In this document: positions 1 to 8,174 of the stretch, piece after piece
Position numbering within the stretch: the stretch's first letter is position 1
Layout: each line of letters begins with the position of its first letter
DNA from: an uncultured Bacteroidales bacterium
GTDB lineage: Bacteria > Bacteroidota > Bacteroidia > Bacteroidales > FEN-979
Reading direction: 5' to 3'
NCBI GenBank assembly: GCA_903903985.1
Contig: CAIVAT010000187.1
Coordinates: 1-64,000, forward strand
DNA: 64,000 nt
Notes under the pieces: model-generated
Seen by the model: the letters and a program-made list of their open reading frames with translations, nothing else
Database searches by the model: none
Told to the model about the DNA's origin: nothing
Translations under genes and position numbers: made by a program

Positions 1-55
1 CCAGGTTGGCAATGATCTTTTCAGTAATCGCAGCATAAACTTCAGCATTGTTCAT
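1..55 (-). CDS. ArdC-like antirestriction/ssDNA-binding protein, N-terminus only (runs off window)
   Basis: Reverse complement from 55 reads MNNAEVYAAITEKIIANL, which resembles the N-terminus of ArdC/DUF1738 proteins; preceded by a radC-RNA-like leader. Confidence 0.55.
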   Translation of the reverse strand, partial: MNNAEVYAAITEKIIANL

Positions 56-59
56 TTTT

Positions 60-300
60 AATGCCCCTGCCCCGGGGACTTGTTTTGGCATCTGGCTCGC
101 CGGTTGGAATTTCTATTGCTCAAGCAATAACCGGATCGGGCGAATAAGGTCAAGGGTGTTGGTCAGATTCTAATTTGAATCTGAAAACATGAAACTTAGC
201 CCTTGACAGTTTCGGGCAGATGTATCGTGAACCAGTTTTGATTTGATATAGGTAACTTTAGGAAATTCCAAGTTAGAGACTCCTAAAACCTGATCAACTC
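60..300 (-). ncRNA. radC RNA motif-like structured 5' leader, copy A (upstream of ArdC-like gene)
   Basis: Nested stems GTCAAGGG(149-156)/CCCTTGAC(200-207), TCAGATTC(163-170)/GAATCTGA(177-184), CCGGTT(100-105)/AACCGG(129-134); conserved CCCCGGGGCAGGGGC next to start codon; shared with copies B and C. Confidence 0.75.
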
Positions 301-322
301 AAATGGGTTTTCTTTTGGCCAA

Positions 323-357
323 GCTTTTTCTTTGCCCCGAGCCATCAAAGAAAAAGC
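323..357. repeat. 12-bp perfect inverted repeat GCTTTTTCTTTG...CAAAGAAAAAGC, copy 1
   Basis: 323-334 pairs with 346-357; second copy at 6341-6375. Confidence 0.7.
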
Positions 358-382
358 GGGACCAGGGAAGTTGTGACAAAAA

Positions 383-408
383 AAAGAGCCCTGGTTTCAG
401 GACTCTTT
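383..408 (-). terminator. Rho-independent-like hairpin downstream of 426..746
   Basis: AAAGAGCCCTG-gttt-CAGGACTCTTT followed by T-run on minus strand. Confidence 0.7.
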
Positions 409-425
409 CTTGGAAGAGAGAGTGA

Positions 426-746
426 TTAGAAGGGAATTTCGTCGGTCGGATCCGGTTTCAGTGCAGGTGTTGAAGTTTTCTTTGTTTTGAGCGATTTCTT
501 TGAAGGTGCCAGTGGTTCAGCTACTGTGGATGTTTCTTCTTCCACCAGTTTGTTTACATAAACTGTGTGGGTGTTTTTAAACTGATCCGGTTCTTTCATT
601 TTGGCTACTTCAAAAGATAAGTACTGTTCTCCTTTGAATTCGTGGGTGAGTTCTGTAATGGCCGCTAAGTTAAAGCTAACTTTGATGATGTCCAGATTCG
701 CAACAATTTTACCTTTTCCGATGTAGATTTTCGTGTAAGTTTTCAT
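426..746 (-). CDS. Small conserved Bacteroidetes protein with SSB-like acidic C-terminal tip (DPTDEIPF)
   Basis: Likely start is MKTYTKIYIGKG (746) rather than 794; C-terminus ...PDPTDEIPF. Confidence 0.55.
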   Translation of the reverse strand: MKTYTKIYIGKGKIVANLDIIKVSFNLAAITELTHEFKGEQYLSFEVAKMKEPDQFKNTHTVYVNKLVEEETSTVAEPLAPSKKSLKTKKTSTPALKPDPTDEIPF

Positions 747-1058
747 GACTGAGTTTTTTAGGGTTAAATTATATGCAAGTGTCATTAAGCTCACGGAGGG
801 GCACTCAAGGAGGAACTGGAATACCGGAGACTTACCCTAGGATATGCCGGGAAAATCCTTGAATGAGAGGAACTGTACCCTGGAATGAGGTAATAACTTA
901 GCATAGAATTAATACCTGAACTCTGTCAAATAAACAGTGGAAATGCACTAGAAAGGTAGAATTGCGAATAAATCAAGAAAGTCGATTGAAAACTGAAGGG
1001 ATAAAGAACTCCTTCTCCAGCGCGCCTGAGCATTGTGCATACTGAAAAGTGGAATTGT

Positions 1059-1760
1059 TTAAAAATATTTTCTATTTTTCGTAATCCATCGTTTTAGATT
1101 TTCATAGTATTTCCAAACAACAGTGTTGTAGTCATCATTTAATATATCCTTGTCCTCCAGGTTAATAGAAGTCCAATGACTAATCATTTGCATGTTGATT
1201 TGATAAAGCATTAAATCTATTTTGCTTAAATTCTTGTATTGGGTTGAATAATTTATAGTATTATTTGGATCTGCTGCCATTGCAAAAATCTTTCCAATAA
1301 ATAAATCAATGGCTTGAAAGGAAAAATTATTGCAGATTTTAAAATTCTGTTTTATCTCAATTACCTCCGTATCACTACATTTATTGTCATAATAATCAAC
1401 GATAAACTTAGTTCTATCAAATCCCATTTCCAAAAATAGAGGCAGCATTTTAATATGTTCTAAACAATTTCCAATATGCTCTATTAGCTTTTCCGAAAAG
1501 ATTGAAGATAAAATTTTGCTTTGAGAAATTTGCACTTTTAAGCTTGAGGAAATATAACACTCTTGCAACCGAAAATAAACGTGTAACATTTCATGAGTAA
1601 AGGAATCGATGCATAAGTTGCTTTTATTAATATAAAAAGTAACATCATTATTTATAGAATAAACCCCATAGTTATCATGAGAATCGTGGAATGTCACGTT
1701 ATACTTAGAATTGATTTCATCCCACAAAGTAGAATTCCGATAATCAATCAGTTCCTTCAT
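1059..1760 (-). CDS. Hypothetical protein with HEMLH (HExxH) zinc-peptidase-like motif
   Basis: 233-aa ORF; FTHEMLHVYFRL segment. Confidence 0.6.
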   Translation of the reverse strand: MKELIDYRNSTLWDEINSKYNVTFHDSHDNYGVYSINNDVTFYINKSNLCIDSFTHEMLHVYFRLQECYISSSLKVQISQSKILSSIFSEKLIEHIGNCLEHIKMLPLFLEMGFDRTKFIVDYYDNKCSDTEVIEIKQNFKICNNFSFQAIDLFIGKIFAMAADPNNTINYSTQYKNLSKIDLMLYQINMQMISHWTSINLEDKDILNDDYNTVVWKYYENLKRWITKNRKYF

Positions 1761-1779
1761 AATTTATTGAACATTACCA

Positions 1780-1905
1780 ATACACACCCACCGACAGCCG
1801 AAATGCAGTTTTCACTTGATGAAATTATTCGATATTTTACAAAGTCTGTAGGTTTGGCGATTACTATCAAAGTCAACCCACTTTTCGGTTGACAGCTCGT
1901 TAGCT
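1780..1905 (-). other. Integron attC-like site at 3' end of the HEPN gene cassette
   Basis: R''-like GTTAGCT (plus strand, 1899-1905) complementary to AGCTAAC at 2587-2593; inner hairpin GTCAACC(1872-1878)/GGTTGAC(1887-1893). Confidence 0.5.
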
Positions 1906-1926
1906 ATTGAGACAACAAACATGATA

Positions 1927-2571
1927 TCATATCTTTCTTGCTTTATTTTCCTTTTCCAGACCAATTTCTAAATAGGCAATTAGTGAGGAACAACAACCCC
2001 CAACAATTGGATTATCGAACATTACAGAGGATTCGAAAAACTTATTTTGTATCAGATTGAATAATTCATAAATTGTTTTCATCAAGACATTTACCATTCG
2101 AATTGTTGCAATTTTTATTGGATCAGCCCCTTCTTTAAGATTAAGATTGTAGTCAAAATGAGATATCAATCTATTTCTCCAATCTCTACAAAATTCTGAT
2201 TCGACAATAATCTGACAGACTTTTTTTTCAACAGTTTTTTTTAATCCTTTATCGCAAATAAATGTTGATAGGTTTTGAATAGTAATATTTTTTTTACCTG
2301 CACTTTTTGGTGGATCTGTGATACGACAAATTCCTAATAATATATTTTCCCACAGCATATTTTGTAATATCTTGAAAAAAAAGAATGGTGCTGTTTTATT
2401 CATGATTGCAATACGAGAATCACTTTCTGAATAAAGATATTTAAATTCGTTGAAGTTAAGACTGATGGAAATTACTCCATTGTATAATAAATTATACTGG
2501 GAGCCTAATTCCTTGCCTAGTTTATCGATATGCTCACTTTTAACCTGTTCTGCTGATTGATCTCTTCTCAT
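1927..2571 (-). CDS. HEPN-domain protein, AbiU2-like
   Basis: Segment CRDWRNRLISHFDYNL has the RX4-6H (RNxxxxH-type) HEPN signature in an alpha-helical ~214-aa protein. Confidence 0.5.
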   Translation of the reverse strand: MRRDQSAEQVKSEHIDKLGKELGSQYNLLYNGVISISLNFNEFKYLYSESDSRIAIMNKTAPFFFFKILQNMLWENILLGICRITDPPKSAGKKNITIQNLSTFICDKGLKKTVEKKVCQIIVESEFCRDWRNRLISHFDYNLNLKEGADPIKIATIRMVNVLMKTIYELFNLIQNKFFESSVMFDNPIVGGCCSSLIAYLEIGLEKENKARKI

Positions 2572-2586
2572 GAATTTTGGAATTAA

Positions 2587-2737
2587 AGCTAACGCTTCAC
2601 TTAAATTAGCAGCGTGGGCATTAGCAGATTTTAAATTCGAATTTCGTCCTCAATTTAGTAGCCAGAACCAGTTCGATTAACCACGATGCCCTGCATTGTT
2701 GGCTGACGGCTCGTTGCTGCTATACTTTGTTATAGGC
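2587..2737 (-). other. Integron attC-like site between HEPN and TPR cassettes
   Basis: Long imperfect palindrome: TAGCAGC(2607-2613)/GCTGCTA(2716-2722), GGGCAT(2616-2621)/ATGCCC(2686-2691); R''-like GTTATAGGC(2729-2737) complementary to GCCTATAAC(4639-4647) at the other cassette end. Confidence 0.6.
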
Positions 2738-2762
2738 AGCCATATTTTACAATCGACAATAT

Positions 2763-4595
2763 TTAATCATTTTTTTTCCTCATTGAAAAATAACCTATTA
2801 TTGCACCAATAGTTCCGGCAATAAGCATTGTTATTAACAGGATAGTTCCATTATTTTTACCTGCGTTCACTCCAGTCCCTGTGGAAATACACGTACCTAT
2901 TTCATTAATTAATGCAAAAACAATTCCGATAACAAATCCAATACCTGCACCACCTAATCCTCCTAATAAACCGACGCCAACTGAAGCAGCAATATTATCA
3001 TTGTCTGCATTTATTCGCACCTTTTCAAGATACGCAAGGTGTTTATTATTATCGTCGACAAATTGTTGAACAGTGGCTTTTAAATTTATTAATACACCAA
3101 GCAAAGTGTCATTATATTTTCTTTCTTTTTGTAAGAAGTCATAAACTTTGAAGTTACCACTGTGACTTTTCGTATTATACGCCATTGCATTGAGTGGGAA
3201 ATGCCATTGTGTTTCGCTGGTTATTCTTTTTGTGAATTCATCCACAAAGGATGGTTGTATTGCAATCATCCTTCCTCCTGATTTATAGTATTGCAATGTA
3301 TTAACAGTTCCTATCATGCTGAGAATTTCATTGAAACTTTTAGCTTGGTTTGGGTTTATTAATGGTTCGCAATAGTTCCAATTATTATCTTTTTCTAGTA
3401 AATCAATAGCTTTTTTGGAAGTGAGGTAAGTATTTTTATTTACCAGTCTTTCTATTATATCTAGATAGTCAGACGCATTACTTCCTAGGATTTGCTGTTG
3501 TCTGCATTGATGTAAAAGTTGACTTGCTTTCTCTGTGGATTCCTGTTGGAGCTTTTTAAGTAAAGATTGAATACATGGCTTTGGGCATAAATCAAGGTCT
3601 GATAAGGTTTTTAATGAATAGAAACGGTCAGTGTTAATGACCTTTTCAAGAACAATTGCTGCTTGGGTTTCATTGTTATTTGCCGCAAGGGCTTTTGCTT
3701 GTGTAAAACCAGCTTCAACCATTTGCGGCACAATAATAAAACCCTTACTTGCATAGTCAGTTGCTTCATTTAATTTGCCTTGTATATAGCAACTCCGTCC
3801 AGCAAAAAGATATGATTCAGCAGCTTGGAGTTTAATTGAGTCGTTTGTCGGTACTTGCCCTGATAGATTCTTATTTAAATCACCTGTTAAATAGTTTGTC
3901 GTTACACTTGCACCTGAATTTGTCTCCGCTACTGCATACTTTGCGGCTTTTTTAAAATATTCTTCCGCTTTGTCTAATGCCAAGTGGTTGGGAGAATACA
4001 TATATATCAGACCAATTCTGTGCAAAGCGAAAAAATCTGACGGCTCAATTTTTTCAGCTTTTAATAAATTAGTTAATGAATCTTCATAAAAATCACTATC
4101 AAATATTGCGTTCTTTAAAAACTTAATGCCTTGTTCAATGTAGTATTGTCGTTCCTTTTGAATGTCTGGTATCCTCAATAGAACCGCGATATTGCCCATA
4201 AGCAGATTGGTGATTCTCTGTTGTTCAATAAGAAGTGAAAGTTTCCAATCGAGCATTGAAGCCATGTCATTGAGTTCGCTTCTTAAACCTCCAATACCAT
4301 AGGATATTTCTTGCAAATTATCTGAAAGAAGTTCAAATCCATCTTCAAAAGTTCCACAAATTACATTTGTAGATTGTTGGATAGCAGCAACTTGTTCTCT
4401 TGTGGCTGTCTTAATAGTGTCACTAATTTCTTTTGTCTGGTATGATACGATTAAAGAGAAATCTTTGGTCTGTTTTCCACTCGAATTCATAACTGATTTG
4501 GTAACATCCTCAACATACGATTGGTTTTGGATGTGTTTACTCCACTGTGATAAATAATTTTCGTCAGAGAACCGATTGTAGTAAAATGTTGACAT
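2763..4595 (-). CDS. TPR-like repeat protein with C-terminal glycine-rich transmembrane segments
   Basis: 610 aa; helical repeats mid-protein; C-terminal GVGLLGGLGGAGIGFVIGIVFAL...ILLITMLIAGTIGAIIGYF. Confidence 0.55.
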   Translation of the reverse strand: MSTFYYNRFSDENYLSQWSKHIQNQSYVEDVTKSVMNSSGKQTKDFSLIVSYQTKEISDTIKTATREQVAAIQQSTNVICGTFEDGFELLSDNLQEISYGIGGLRSELNDMASMLDWKLSLLIEQQRITNLLMGNIAVLLRIPDIQKERQYYIEQGIKFLKNAIFDSDFYEDSLTNLLKAEKIEPSDFFALHRIGLIYMYSPNHLALDKAEEYFKKAAKYAVAETNSGASVTTNYLTGDLNKNLSGQVPTNDSIKLQAAESYLFAGRSCYIQGKLNEATDYASKGFIIVPQMVEAGFTQAKALAANNNETQAAIVLEKVINTDRFYSLKTLSDLDLCPKPCIQSLLKKLQQESTEKASQLLHQCRQQQILGSNASDYLDIIERLVNKNTYLTSKKAIDLLEKDNNWNYCEPLINPNQAKSFNEILSMIGTVNTLQYYKSGGRMIAIQPSFVDEFTKRITSETQWHFPLNAMAYNTKSHSGNFKVYDFLQKERKYNDTLLGVLINLKATVQQFVDDNNKHLAYLEKVRINADNDNIAASVGVGLLGGLGGAGIGFVIGIVFALINEIGTCISTGTGVNAGKNNGTILLITMLIAGTIGAIIGYFSMRKKND

Positions 4596-4825
4596 GTTAT
4601 TATTGTTTTATAATGTGGGCTGGGTCCGTCTTATGGTCGCCTATAACGATTGATAACTGCCATATTGCAGCTATTTTTAACTATAGATGCAACACATATT
4701 CAACGTCTAAGCAGTAAAGATAAATCTTAATCACAATATTTTATACACTCCTACTAATATTATTTTGAATTTTCTCTCCCAGACCGTCCATGTCAAACAA
4801 CTTTGACCATCCGAGGAAAAATAAA

Positions 4826-4843
4826 GCCCCGGTTTCCCGGGGC
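4826..4843 (-). terminator. Hairpin terminator downstream of radC
   Basis: GCCCCGGtttcCCGGGGC-type stem with A/T-rich flank. Confidence 0.6.
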
Positions 4844-4849
4844 CAAAAC

Positions 4850-5590
4850 TCATAAACACCCTTCATCAGCGAATGAATAGTAAGTATCGTTTCCAACAAT
4901 GATGTGATCCAGCACCGCTATTTCAAGCAGTTTCCCGCCATCCACGATCTTTTTTGTGATCTTGGCATCTGCTTCCGATGGTGTCGGGGTCCCCGAAGGG
5001 TGATTATGACCCAGGATGATATTGCAGGCTTGATTATCCAGGGCAAACTTCCAGATCTTCTTCGGGTCCACCACCGTTCCGGAGATACCCCCTTCTGAAA
5101 TCCTCAGCTTCTTCATGATCTTGTTTGCCCGGTTCAGGGTCAGAATCCAGAATTCCTCATACGGCAGATCCCCGATCAGGGACTGAAAGATTTCAAAGGC
5201 ATCCCGCGATGAGCTGATCTTTGTCCTGCTGGCTGCTTCTGATTCATTCCTGCGTCTTGCCAGAGAGAACATGGCAACGATAGCGAGGGCACGGCATTCC
5301 CCGATCCCTTTGATCTTCTGCAATTCCGTGTAGCCGAACTTCCAAAGGTCTGCCAGGTTATTCCCGCTGGCCATCAGCAGGGTCTTTGCGATATCCAATG
5401 CGTTTTCCCCTGAAATCCCGCTGCCTATGACCAGACTCAGCAGTTCTGCATCAGACATGCTGGAGGTTCCCTTCATCAACAGCTTGTAACTCGGCAGATC
5501 ATCCTCGGCCCAGAGCTTCATGGGAAGACCATGTTTGTAATAGGTCAGCGGATCAAGAACGGTAGGTGTGTTTAAAAATGACTTTTTCAA
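4850..5590 (-). CDS. radC: RadC family protein (JAB/MPN domain)
   Basis: LGHNHPSGTPTPSEAD...VLDHIIVG motif; TTG start at 5590 directly after the leader RNA. Confidence 0.9.
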   Translation of the reverse strand: MKKSFLNTPTVLDPLTYYKHGLPMKLWAEDDLPSYKLLMKGTSSMSDAELLSLVIGSGISGENALDIAKTLLMASGNNLADLWKFGYTELQKIKGIGECRALAIVAMFSLARRRNESEAASRTKISSSRDAFEIFQSLIGDLPYEEFWILTLNRANKIMKKLRISEGGISGTVVDPKKIWKFALDNQACNIILGHNHPSGTPTPSEADAKITKKIVDGGKLLEIAVLDHIIVGNDTYYSFADEGCL

Positions 5591-5599
5591 TAGTTTGGC

Positions 5600-5830
5600 C
5601 CCTGCCCCGGGGACTTATTATGGCATCTAGCTCGCCGGTAAGAATTTGTGGTTTCCATACCGGATCGGTGAGAATAATGTCAAGAGTGTAGGTCAGATTC
5701 TTCTTTGAATCTGAATACATTCACATGCTCTTGACAGTTTCACAATACAATTGCCGTGAACCAGTTCAGATACGATACAGGTACCTTTATAAATTCTTAG
5801 CGGAGAGGTTCCTACAACCAGACCACCGGG
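5600..5830 (-). ncRNA. radC RNA motif-like structured 5' leader, copy B (upstream of radC)
   Basis: GTCAAGAG(5679-5686)/CTCTTGAC(5728-5735), TCAGATTC(5693-5700)/GAATCTGA(5707-5714), CCGGTA(5635-5640)/TACCGG(5658-5663). Confidence 0.8.
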
Positions 5831-5850
5831 GAGGTACGACCATAAAAAAT

Positions 5851-5875
5851 GGCAGACAGTCTGGGACTGCCTGCC
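5851..5875 (-). terminator. Hairpin terminator of the 5882..6052 gene
   Basis: GGCAGACAGTCtgGGACTGCCTGCC with T-run on minus strand. Confidence 0.65.
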
Positions 5876-5881
5876 TTGGTA

Positions 5882-6052
5882 TTAATTTTCAATTCTGAAT
5901 TGCTTCTGAAATTCTTTAAATTCCCATTCGTAAAGGGCCGATTGTTCTTCGGTCATTTCTTCAGCAAAACCTGGGTAGTAAATGTTTTCAATGTGTTGGA
6001 CAAACATCTCTTCGATGGATTGTCTGCGGGTTTCTTTCGTAAGTGCGGTCAT
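5882..6052 (-). CDS. Small hypothetical protein (MTALTKETRRQSIEEMF...)
   Basis: Start moved from 6205 to the Met at 6052 because the 5' part of the ORF is leader RNA. Confidence 0.5.
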   Translation of the reverse strand: MTALTKETRRQSIEEMFVQHIENIYYPGFAEEMTEEQSALYEWEFKEFQKQFRIEN

Positions 6053-6059
6053 GGCAGTG

Positions 6060-6265
6060 AGTTTTAGATTGTGAATACTTGAAAATTTCTGACCGCGAAG
6101 CGTTAAACCGGATCGATTGGATGATGTCCAGGGTGTTGGTCTGATTGACTTTTCAATCTGAATACACTGAAAGCGACCATTTCTTGTCGCCCTTGACAGT
6201 TCCAAGCTGCAGCGTTATACCAGCAGGAAGCCCTGTCGATATAGGTAGCTTAGTAAGGATTTCAA
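6060..6265 (-). ncRNA. radC RNA motif-like structured 5' leader, copy C
   Basis: GTCCAGGG(6126-6133)/CCCTTGAC(6190-6197, one mismatch), TCTGATTG(6140-6147)/CAATCTGA(6154-6161); extra GCGAC/GTCGC hairpin. Confidence 0.65.
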
Positions 6266-6340
6266 GTATTATATTGTGGGGTGGGTTTTTGCTGACTTTT
6301 TACTTCAAAAAGCTGCCCGTTTGAGGTTTCTTTTTGCCAA

Positions 6341-6375
6341 GCTTTTTCTTTGCCTTCAATCATCAAAGAAAAAGC
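6341..6375. repeat. 12-bp perfect inverted repeat GCTTTTTCTTTG...CAAAGAAAAAGC, copy 2
   Basis: 6341-6352 pairs with 6364-6375. Confidence 0.7.
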
Positions 6376-6665
6376 GTCGCCGCAGGGTGTCTGCAATGAA
6401 AATAATCCTATTTACCCCATATACAGGACATTGTGAGCGCACTTCTCACATTTTCCTGCAAATGTCTGTCAGAAGACCACGCCCCGCCCTGTGGCGTTTC
6501 ACAATTGTGAGGCCGTTTCTTAGTCAGGATATATGAAAAATGCTCCCCTAAGCCGGTACTGCTCCCCTATGCAATAGGGGCGGCAGTATCACCATATACA
6601 GACACACGCAGTGTGACTGTGGTTTGTAATGCTACGAATGACTTTAGGATTGTAACCTTGTGAAG

Positions 6666-8174
6666 TTATGACTTGCCAAGGAACAGCATATCATGTGCAG
6701 GCTCACTGCTGCCCATACTCTGAAAGAACATCCAGTAGTAAAGATTATCTACGGCATCACTCAGGTCAGTGGCTTTCCACCTGGGCTGATCTGTCTTTCG
6801 TTCAGATGATTTGTCCTTCTTAAATTCAGAAGGCAGAACTGGCGCTGCATCCATTGACACAAACGTCTCCCGGGCATTGTTCATGTTTATCTTAAATGAT
6901 GGGGCGTTAGGATTATCATTAGACAAAAACTTATGCCAGAAGAGAAACTTATCCATGTGAGATATCTCATGCAATTCAGCACATAGCGTGACTGACCAGC
7001 CGGCACTGCTGAGTTGGTCCATTACATCATCGAAATATGTTTGCCTGCTGGCTGCATCATTGCGCCTGGTACCGTCACTGCCACCGTATAAGTTGATATG
7101 CTTATTCTTGTGGTATTGATAGTAGTCAATGAAATTGGTTACCAATACTTTGAGCGTTTCGTTTTCAACATAAAAGTTCTTTATGATTGGAAACTCATTT
7201 ACTGATCTGTGCCATTGGCTTATGATCATGCAGTTTTGAGTAGAACCGAAATCAAATGAACCGTACAGATATTCATCCGGCAGGCAATCTGCATCTCCCC
7301 TGCAGTCAAGGCCGCCCTGCTCCCCCAGGTCATGACTGATCGCGTCATAAAACGAATAGTTGTATGCATCATAATAGCAGTGTGCATTTTCATTGAGGGA
7401 TGGATAAAAACCGTTGATATTTCTTTTCCGCCTTTGGTTATCGACTTCTATTTCATAAACCATTTGGGGAAGTACCCGGTTGAGGTCACGGAAATATCTT
7501 GAACCAAGAATGAATTCATTTTCCCGGGCACTGGCTTCAAGGAATAGGAATTCCTTCGGGAATTCGGTCATCAGCTCTTCATAATCAAAAACCCAGTCAC
7601 CTGCAGGGGTCAATGGTTGTGATCCCAGGAACATGGTCCCATGGTGAAAACGGACATGGCCAAAGCGGTCATTGTTGCCGCGATTAGCAGGCAATACATC
7701 GCTGTCAATGGCTGATTTTTTCAGCAGGGTGGACTCGTCGAACACCATGTAATCATAGGATCCGCTGCGGGCCATTTCCGGCCGGTCGAAAGAATTATAT
7801 TCAACGACAAAGCCATTGAAGAAATGAATGCAATTTGTGTAATCAAGCGGTGGCTGAAACGGTTCAAGCCAATTGAACTTTTTTGGCGCTTTCATCCCGA
7901 CAAAATAGTGGATACCTCGGTAGAGACCACGGCGTTCCCAGTGATCGATGATCGGTGGGAGTGATTTTGTTCTTATGTGGAAATAGGTAAGGCCATTGAG
8001 GGAAATTTTTCCACGCGGCATGTTTTTAAGGCAATCTATCACCTGGTCGGCAATGATGGTAGTCTTGCCGACGCCTCTTCCTCCGATAAACATTTTATGT
8101 GGCCGGCTGGAGAGTTTTATAATGGTTTGTGGTTCATTATAAAAAGGCGCTTCAGTAATTTGCGGTACAATCAT
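6666..8174 (-). CDS. Phage large terminase-like ATPase/nuclease
   Basis: Walker A GGRGVGKTT, Walker B-like YMVFDES, nuclease-like YGSFDFGSTQN. Confidence 0.8.
   Translation of the reverse strand: MIVPQITEAPFYNEPQTIIKLSSRPHKMFIGGRGVGKTTIIADQVIDCLKNMPRGKISLNGLTYFHIRTKSLPPIIDHWERRGLYRGIHYFVGMKAPKKFNWLEPFQPPLDYTNCIHFFNGFVVEYNSFDRPEMARSGSYDYMVFDESTLLKKSAIDSDVLPANRGNNDRFGHVRFHHGTMFLGSQPLTPAGDWVFDYEELMTEFPKEFLFLEASARENEFILGSRYFRDLNRVLPQMVYEIEVDNQRRKRNINGFYPSLNENAHCYYDAYNYSFYDAISHDLGEQGGLDCRGDADCLPDEYLYGSFDFGSTQNCMIISQWHRSVNEFPIIKNFYVENETLKVLVTNFIDYYQYHKNKHINLYGGSDGTRRNDAASRQTYFDDVMDQLSSAGWSVTLCAELHEISHMDKFLFWHKFLSNDNPNAPSFKINMNNARETFVSMDAAPVLPSEFKKDKSSERKTDQPRWKATDLSDAVDNLYYWMFFQSMGSSEPAHDMLFLGKS

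Follow-up and report, generated by a model that had tools for sequence, protein, structure and literature searches.

Candidate folded-template promoters preceding ardC, radC and small genes in prophages and related elements of Bacteroidales

Conjugative plasmids, predominantly those of Proteobacteria and among them plasmids of E. coli, are known to carry single-strand promoters, and a limited literature search named no such promoters in Bacteroidetes or tailed phages. The early hairpin promoters of the tailed phage N4 are template-strand DNA hairpins used at genome entry; these are very short and read by a virion-borne single-subunit polymerase, unlike what is proposed for the leaders described here. 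In the Frpo/ssi elements of F and related conjugative plasmids the folded template strand mimics a duplex promoter that is read from the hairpin tip towards the base, and several copies are located 5' of anti-restriction and anti-defence genes (PMC11541004), all of which has a counterpart, observed or predicted, in our leaders. The Bacillus plasmid pLS20 resembles our elements in carrying several conserved regions rich in inverted repeats, EGeRS1, with ardC or another establishment operon downstream of each (PMC8708921). The EGeRS1 regions differ in being 420-750 bp long with no promoter found in their fold, and a single-strand promoter was rejected by the pLS20 authors on the ground that it is the non-template strand that is transferred (PMC8708921). 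Finally, the radC RNA motif, like our leaders a structured sequence, was named after its association with radC and is listed for Proteobacteria (PMC2864571).

The window analysed here is the whole stretch of 64,000 nucleotides from the genome of an uncultured Bacteroidales bacterium. It contains three mutually homologous leaders, A, B and C, on the minus strand 5' of the ardC start, radC and a 56-aa ORF (Table 1), where the first-pass annotation had placed them. More copies are present in the same genome (two in C167, others in C13, C92, C3 and C134), and the proposal that one mobile element carries a multi-copy, covarying regulon, with leaders preceding ardC, radC and a small gene, was right.

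Table 1. Leaders, their candidate promoter features and neighbouring genes, in window positions.
Feature	Position	Strand	Sequence	Details
ardC-like gene, first 18 codons	1..55	-		truncated by contig end; orthologues in L014, L015, L020, L029
Leader A small 5'-UTR hairpin	64..96	-	GCCAGATGCC (conserved)	GGGGCA loop; directly 5' of ardC start codon
Leader A, putative folded-promoter region of ardC	101..283	-		R2 68.1 bits, R1 176.6 bits
Leader A P0 gene-proximal arm	104..113	+	TTGGAATTTC	partner 262-271; from sequence, compensatory to leader B
Leader A TTGACA (-33/-35 box)	203..208	+		template strand, inside helix P1
Leader A side segment Px	216..242	+		27 nt, between both boxes, looped out in fold
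Leader A -7 box	253..260	+	TAACTTTA	1 mismatch to TAnnTTTG; folded spacing 20
Leader A P0 gene-distal arm	262..271	+	GAAATTCCAA	from sequence, compensatory to leader B
Accessory hairpin	312..357	-	GCTTTTTCTTTG-N-CAAAGAAAAAGC	upstream of leader A
radC	4850..5590	-		RadC JAB domain and UPF0758 N-terminal; Pfam 8.6e-41
Leader B small 5'-UTR hairpin element	5599..5631	-		5' of radC start
Leader B, putative folded-promoter region of radC	5635..5809	-		R2 61.7 bits, R1 172.6 bits
Leader B P0 gene-proximal arm	5639..5647	+	TAAGAATTT	from sequence, comparison with leader A
Leader B TTGACA	5731..5736	+		template strand
Leader B -7 box	5782..5789	+	TACCTTTA	1 mismatch; folded spacing 20
Leader B P0 gene-distal arm	5791..5799	+	AAATTCTTA	from sequence, comparison with leader A
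56-aa gene	5882..6052	-	MTALTKETRRQSIEEMF...	kept behind leader in many elements
Leader C, putative folded-promoter region of small gene	6069..6281	-		R2 177 bits, R1 51.9 bits
Leader C P0 gene-proximal arm	6074..6084	+	AATACTTGAAA	from sequence
Leader C TTGACA	6193..6198	+		template strand
Leader C -7 box	6246..6253	+	TAGCTTAG	1 mismatch; folded spacing 20
Leader C P0 gene-distal arm	6260..6270	+	TTTCAAGTATT	from sequence

Computational searches defined a leader family of 50 matches to model R1 and 98 to model R2, partly overlapping. Its members precede ardC, radC and small genes in prophages and related elements of Bacteroidales, with 3-5 copies per element. All members found belong to Bacteroidales-type genomes and viral contigs and represent 8 or more families within Bacteroidales, and no carriers outside the order were found in the rest of the class. 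Many exact pattern matches in unrelated genomes (L010, L012, L013, L019, L021-L023, L026, L028 and L031 are examples) were rejected as arising by chance and involving only the P3 hairpin. The products encoded downstream of the leaders include ArdC, RadC and ArdA; an ardC orthologue in L101 carries the Pfam domains ArdcN and MPTase-PolyVal. The product of the 56-aa gene had no match in Pfam or PHROG, and a 148-aa gene is also preceded by such a leader.

The leaders had been taken for the published radC RNA motif, RF01754, and that motif for one of Bacteroidetes, neither of which held. The window gave no match to the Rfam radC model at the gathering threshold, positions 1-7200 gave none at E<=10, and the best match in the whole genome scored 16 bits at an unrelated place. 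The published motif is proteobacterial (PMC2864571), whereas the leaders occur in Bacteroidales-type genomes. The family is absent from Rfam altogether, with no match to the leaders in a search of the window and 20 related loci.

The leader types were aligned separately, since a joint MAFFT alignment of all types misplaced helix P0. In a MAFFT alignment for which the structure was not used in fitting, 89.9% of the cells pair, as compared to 31.7-52.0% with the arms slid, and 19 pairs changed on both sides, a number reached in 0 of 500 shuffles. Covariation extended to 39 of 46 pairs in a larger set and was seen again in a set fetched with another motif. Two compensatory changes read from the window at the outset, G155-C201 to A5685-T5729 and C170-G177 to G6147-C6154, were located in the conserved helix P1 and at the closing pair of the conserved helix P3, respectively. 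A third, T105-A129 to A5640-T5658, belongs to a local CCGGT/ACCGG stem that is seen in the A and B types only; the family-wide structure places its bases in other pairs (P0 and P0b).

The paired positions behave as in DNA, with no greater tolerance of G-U than of A-C. There were 69 G-U and 79 A-C cells in alignment A8, which like A10 was fitted to the model and so favours that structure, 23 versus 18 in alignment A7, and 24 versus 25 in a nearest-neighbour comparison. The TPP riboswitch, used as a control in the same 43 genomes, yielded 78 G-U cells versus 0 A-C cells. The leaders thus lack the RNA-type tolerance of G-U pairs expected of a motif such as radC RNA. When folded as DNA, the template strands of leaders B and C gave z-scores of -5.3 and -3.0.

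Read on the template strand, the gene-distal arm contains a TTGACA box and a box of the form TAnnTTTG, which is the published -7 consensus of sigma-ABfr of Bacteroidetes (PMC7366714). Of 86 distinct leaders, 52 had the exact -7 box and 25 more had it with 1 mismatch; none had it at the corresponding place of the other arm. All 53 exact matches fell at a single alignment place and none on the sense strand (shuffled control: 15.1, both strands together); a search of the leaders' sense strand for promoters of the sigma-70 type listed none. Among 21 new sites fetched solely via the 5'-UTR hairpin, 12 had an exact antisense TAnnTTTG at the predicted distance and none had one on the sense strand. 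A looser two-box scan of new viral sites, allowing 1 mismatch, was not discriminating (10 antisense versus 7 sense).

The linear distance from TTG to TA ranged from 19 to 56 nucleotides, being 31-56 in most copies and 19-21 in copies without Px. With Px left out, 43 of 79 leaders had a distance of 20 and another 11 one of 21. Pairing ends directly before the A of the TA, which adjoins P0b in 73 of 76 leaders, and is followed on the same arm by a bubble of 10-14 unpaired nucleotides, 12 of them in 48 leaders.

Taken from these sequence features, it is probable that the leaders are promoters that become active once the gene's template strand, which is the plus strand of the window, folds. When single-stranded or extruded, this strand would fold on itself into a long imperfect hairpin, with P3 and P2 at the tip followed by P1 with the TTGACA box, a spacer duplex of P1' and P0c from which the side hairpin Px is looped out, the short helix P0b, the bubble of about 12 nucleotides and the P0 duplex reaching past the start point. 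The gene-distal arm would serve as the non-template strand, offering TTG(ACA) at -33 and, about 20 nucleotides on, TAnnTTTG at -7 to a host RNA polymerase of the sigma-ABfr type, with the TA at the end of the pairing resembling a pre-opened promoter. The gene-proximal arm would be the template, running directly into the gene behind the leader, be it ardC, radC or the small gene. With the DNA in its usual duplex form, the boxes face away from that gene and are too widely spaced in most copies, and the genes should therefore be quiet. They may be switched on briefly while the DNA of the element is entering a new cell, the stage at which anti-restriction proteins are required. The family, its base pairs and their DNA-like behaviour, the places of the boxes, the constancy of the folded spacing and the bubble are computational results; we infer recognition by RNA polymerase, the timing of expression and the cause of the folding, for which single-stranded entry and supercoil-driven extrusion are candidates.

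Some observations count against a folded single-stranded promoter. The D-type leaders have a weak -33 box, and some C-type copies tolerate a G-A mismatch in P1, the helix of the box. The element in the window is a double-stranded DNA phage with genes for a terminase and an S49 protease; both it and its relative in G007, which has a portal region, tape measure and endolysin, are tailed-phage genomes. No relaxase or transfer genes were recognised when the ORFs around the elements were read by eye.

An alternative that we consider unlikely is that the leaders are cis-regulatory RNAs, riboswitch-like or protein-binding, in the 5' UTR of an mRNA whose promoter is located further upstream. The strong covariation, the conserved internal loops, the position 5' of genes and the RNA folding z-scores of the sense strand, which at about -3.0 to -3.2 are beyond chance, are all consistent with this. 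RNA as the acting molecule of the large structure, as first annotated, is disfavoured because G-U pairs occur no more often than A-C mismatches, unlike in the riboswitch of the same genomes, and because the unpaired segment with the highest conservation reads as an exact -7 box when taken from the opposite strand; nor does Rfam give a match. The RNA-like hairpin 5' of the start codon, which accompanies many leader copies, is a separate small element.

It is more doubtful still that the boxes form plain double-stranded promoters pointed away from the gene, giving divergent or antisense transcription, and that their inverted counterpart in the other arm is secondary. Where Px is lacking, the linear spacing would suit a promoter on that strand, but the spacing of 31-56 in most copies is used by no promoter of the sigma-70 type while the folded spacing is constant, and the covariation between the arms would be left unexplained. 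About as doubtful is a fold without function, produced by template switching (quasi-palindrome correction) or marking a mobile inverted repeat: close relatives do show many double changes when compared with single changes, and G-U cells are as frequent as A-C cells, but asymmetric unpaired segments (the bubble and the P1/P1' loop) are retained, the arms occupy fixed places before orthologous genes and differ among copies, unlike transposon ends, and promoter spacing is kept only in the folded form.

The folded-template promoter reading agrees with one trait of the Frpo/ssi elements, an inverted-repeat region that precedes early genes and has a strand folding into a duplex-like promoter. Frpo/ssi elements have TTGACA/TATAAT boxes and are located in conjugative leading regions, whereas the leaders have Bacteroidetes -33/-7 boxes, a side hairpin within the spacer and a location in double-stranded DNA prophages with no recognised transfer genes. 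A blastn search with the L049 leader against 72,556 plasmid records, F included, gave no match. The best reading is that the leaders are Frpo-like in logic and, judged from this one-leader search, apparently unrelated in sequence. When we folded the region upstream of ssb in F, its layout was, by our own reading, as in the leaders: each arm has GGACA and the tip is rich in A+T.

If the proposal is correct, the folded-promoter trick arose or spread much more widely than conjugative plasmids. More tentatively, and with the balance slightly against it, temperate double-stranded DNA phages and related elements of Bacteroidales might possess a zygotic-induction regulon independent of conjugation, in which arrays of folded-template promoters tuned to sigma-ABfr fire only while the entering DNA is unwound or supercoiled and deploy ArdC, RadC and their companions before restriction. 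If the folded-promoter reading is right, the family would also offer a way to find anti-defence genes timed to entry, with the 56-aa and 148-aa genes behind the same switch as candidates. In that case a covarying 'RNA motif' can be a DNA element, and the count of G-U versus A-C cells is a simple test that could serve for other orphan motifs, radC RNA included.

The CTTTTTCTTTG...CAAAGAAAAAG hairpin was rejected as a terminator because it is not followed by a T-run. The accessory hairpin upstream of leader A is repeated upstream of leader C, at 6330-6375, and occurs in exact form at just these two places in the genome.

Three related leaders lie on the minus strand of the window, each 5' of a different gene, as proposed in the first-pass annotation (leaders A, B and C; see table). 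They can be aligned with each other and fold better than shuffled sequences (z about -3). Of the three compensatory pairs quoted in that annotation, two fall in helices found throughout the family (P1 and P3); the third belongs to a local stem present in the A and B types only. The suggestion that the leaders represent the published radC RNA motif (Rfam RF01754) was refuted by covariance-model searches and by the listing of the motif as proteobacterial in the original table (PMC2864571). The RF01754 model had no match in the first 7.2 kb even at E<=10, and its best score across the genome was 16 bits, at an unrelated place. Searches against Rfam yielded zero matches in the whole window at gathering scores and zero in 20 related loci.

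The first relatives, fetched with a pattern for the P3 hairpin, came from metagenome-derived genomes of Bacteroidales and a single phage contig. A model built from the ardC and radC types only (R1) recovered the small-gene leader type at full length and matched 60 places in 21 of the 43 genomes of the bacterial family. A model built from long leader forms (R2) yielded 98 matches in the fetched loci, and it recovered the D-type leaders, a further type absent from the building sets of both models. Within the order, 14 of 393 genomes were carriers, and these came from 8 families; no carrier was found in the class sample outside the order. Each element holds 3-5 copies, all on one strand, with four in the viral contig L032. 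The gene order in the relative G007 is terminase, leader and small gene, leader and radC, variable cargo, leader and ardC, leader and a 148-aa gene, and portal-region genes. Leaders of other elements are placed 5' of different RadC-domain genes, one of which has two leaders and adjoins a gene for the ArdA antirestriction protein (PF07275; L099:7630-8247).

Both the existence of the leader family and its base pairing are firmly established. The structure comprises helices P0 (closing), P0b (ACC:GGT), P0c, P1', P1 (GTCAAGG:CCTTGAC), P2 and P3 and the side hairpins Px and P1b. On a structure-free alignment, the hand-drawn model gave 89.9% paired cells, as compared to 31.7-52.0% when slid, and 19 double-changed pairs, exceeding all 500 shuffles. 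RNAalifold recovered P0b, P0c and the P1b hairpin unaided, and 39 of 46 pairs were changed on both sides in the 98-match set, for which the alignment was fitted to the model.

In structured RNA, Watson-Crick pairs can be replaced by G-U but not by A-C. A TPP riboswitch control from the same 43 genomes contained 78 G-U and 0 A-C pairs, unlike the leaders, for which the G-U and A-C counts were similar in three alignments (69 versus 79 in A8, 35 versus 40 in A6 and 23 versus 18 in A7) and in leaders of viral contigs fetched by another motif (18 versus 22). Comparisons of nearest relatives gave 24 G-U versus 25 A-C changes and 79 complete Watson-Crick exchanges. Hence, the Watson-Crick duplex is kept regardless of strand, by selection (or mutation). 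This pattern argues that the large structure acts as DNA rather than RNA. Folded as DNA, the template strands (+ strand of the window) of leaders B and C had z values of -5.3 and -3.0, respectively.

Bacteroidetes promoters have a -7 box TAnnTTTG and a TTTG near -33 (PMC7366714). On its gene-distal arm, the long hairpin has a conserved segment, CAAANNTA, that matches this -7 box exactly when read on the template strand. This box was exact in 52 of 86 leaders and had one mismatch in 25, with 0 at the equivalent position in the opposite arm; all 53 exact boxes among the distinct leaders were at a single place and strand. Helix P1 carries TTGACA. The TTG-to-TA distance is 19-56 nt along the strand, and without Px it is 20 in 43 and 21 in 11 of 79 leaders. 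In 73 of 76 leaders, P0b stops one base short of the A of TA, followed by 10-14 unpaired nucleotides on the distal arm before P0 resumes. The fold thus has the shape of an opened promoter. Because the boxes sit on the distal arm, a polymerase on the folded + strand would copy the proximal arm and continue into the gene, in the manner of Frpo, the single-strand promoters of F and related conjugative plasmids (PMC11541004). The leaders are not members of the Frpo family, either by sequence or by element type, but we consider it likely that they work like a single-strand promoter.

A small hairpin is located between P0 and the start codon, where 32 distinct copies share GCCAGATGCC..AA.AAG, a 4-bp stem and the loop (A/G)GGGCA. 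Covariation is free in the stem, with four T-G cells versus one C-A. This RNA-like hairpin seems to be a second, separate regulatory motif that would be part of the mRNA and probably acts on translation; the loop GGC may form a pseudoknot with an upstream GCC. A pattern for the hairpin identified 28 further viral stretches.

Viral contigs found only by this 5'-UTR hairpin served as a test set, with predictions fixed beforehand. An R2 match, weak in some cases, ended about 5 nt before the hairpin at about 16 of the ~26 judgeable sites. Among independent sites with enough upstream sequence, an exact antisense -7 box was present at the predicted distance in 12 of 21, as compared to 0 of 21 for the sense strand, and the spacing was 19-21 where both boxes were exact. 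A scan allowing one mismatch was non-discriminating at the new viral sites (10 antisense versus 7 sense). A further leader type, CAAAGGTATTGATCGCC...GTCAAGGG...CCCTTGACTAGAATCC, was seen in L147, L148, L149, L153, L154, L161, L168 and L172; it lacks Px, has a linear spacing of 19-21, and is missed or barely reached by R2.

The window element and its relatives are tailed-phage genomes, with genes for terminase, S49 head protease, tape measure and endolysin; judged by the terminase, the best phage relatives have Polaribacter, Microcystis and Flavobacterium as hosts. Other carriers, with primases of the VapE or DnaG type, resemble satellites or integrative elements. No relaxase was recognised in the elements examined. 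The single strand could arise by supercoil-driven extrusion, as in phage N4, or by single-strand entry through another route. One strand holds nearly all large ORFs in the whole prophage of G007 (C24; L135, L101 and L136), in which no integrase was recognised.

The radC-ardC interval is a defence-gene hot spot, since other elements hold restriction-modification genes there: L101 has two cytosine methylases plus an NgoFVII-type nuclease, and L104 has a PLD/SNF2 helicase plus a type IIG enzyme.

Positions of features in the window
Feature	Strand	Position	Remarks
Leader A	-	~60-300	5' of the ardC start (cut by contig end)
Boxes of leader A	+	203 (TTGACA), 253 (-7 box)	TAACTTTA, one mismatch; folded spacing 20
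Leader B	-	5600-5830	5' of radC
Boxes of leader B	+	5731 (TTGACA), 5782 (-7 box)	TACCTTTA, one mismatch; folded spacing 20
Leader C	-	6060-6281	5' of the 56-aa ORF
Boxes of leader C	+	6193 (TTGACA), 6246 (-7 box)	TAGCTTAG, one mismatch; folded spacing 20
Small hairpin		64-96, 5599-5631	Invariant (A/G)GGGCA loop and GCCAGATGCC; also L147-L174
Strong hairpin		312-357, 6330-6375	GCTTTTTCTTTG...CAAAGAAAAAGC, then TTGGC(A/C)AAAAG
Variable cargo between radC and ardC		426-4595	AbiU2-like HEPN protein (1927-2571), 610-aa TPR-like protein, two ORFs without assigned function
Very large ORFs		27368-58099	2808, 3052, 874 and 2741 aa; all four lie in the contig's host part

The strong hairpin, exact copies of which occur in the genome only at the two tabulated places, is located 80-130 nt 5' of most leaders; a role as terminator was rejected, as it has no T-run. 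Of the four very large ORFs, those of 2808 and 3052 aa have N-terminal starts like those of secreted proteins.
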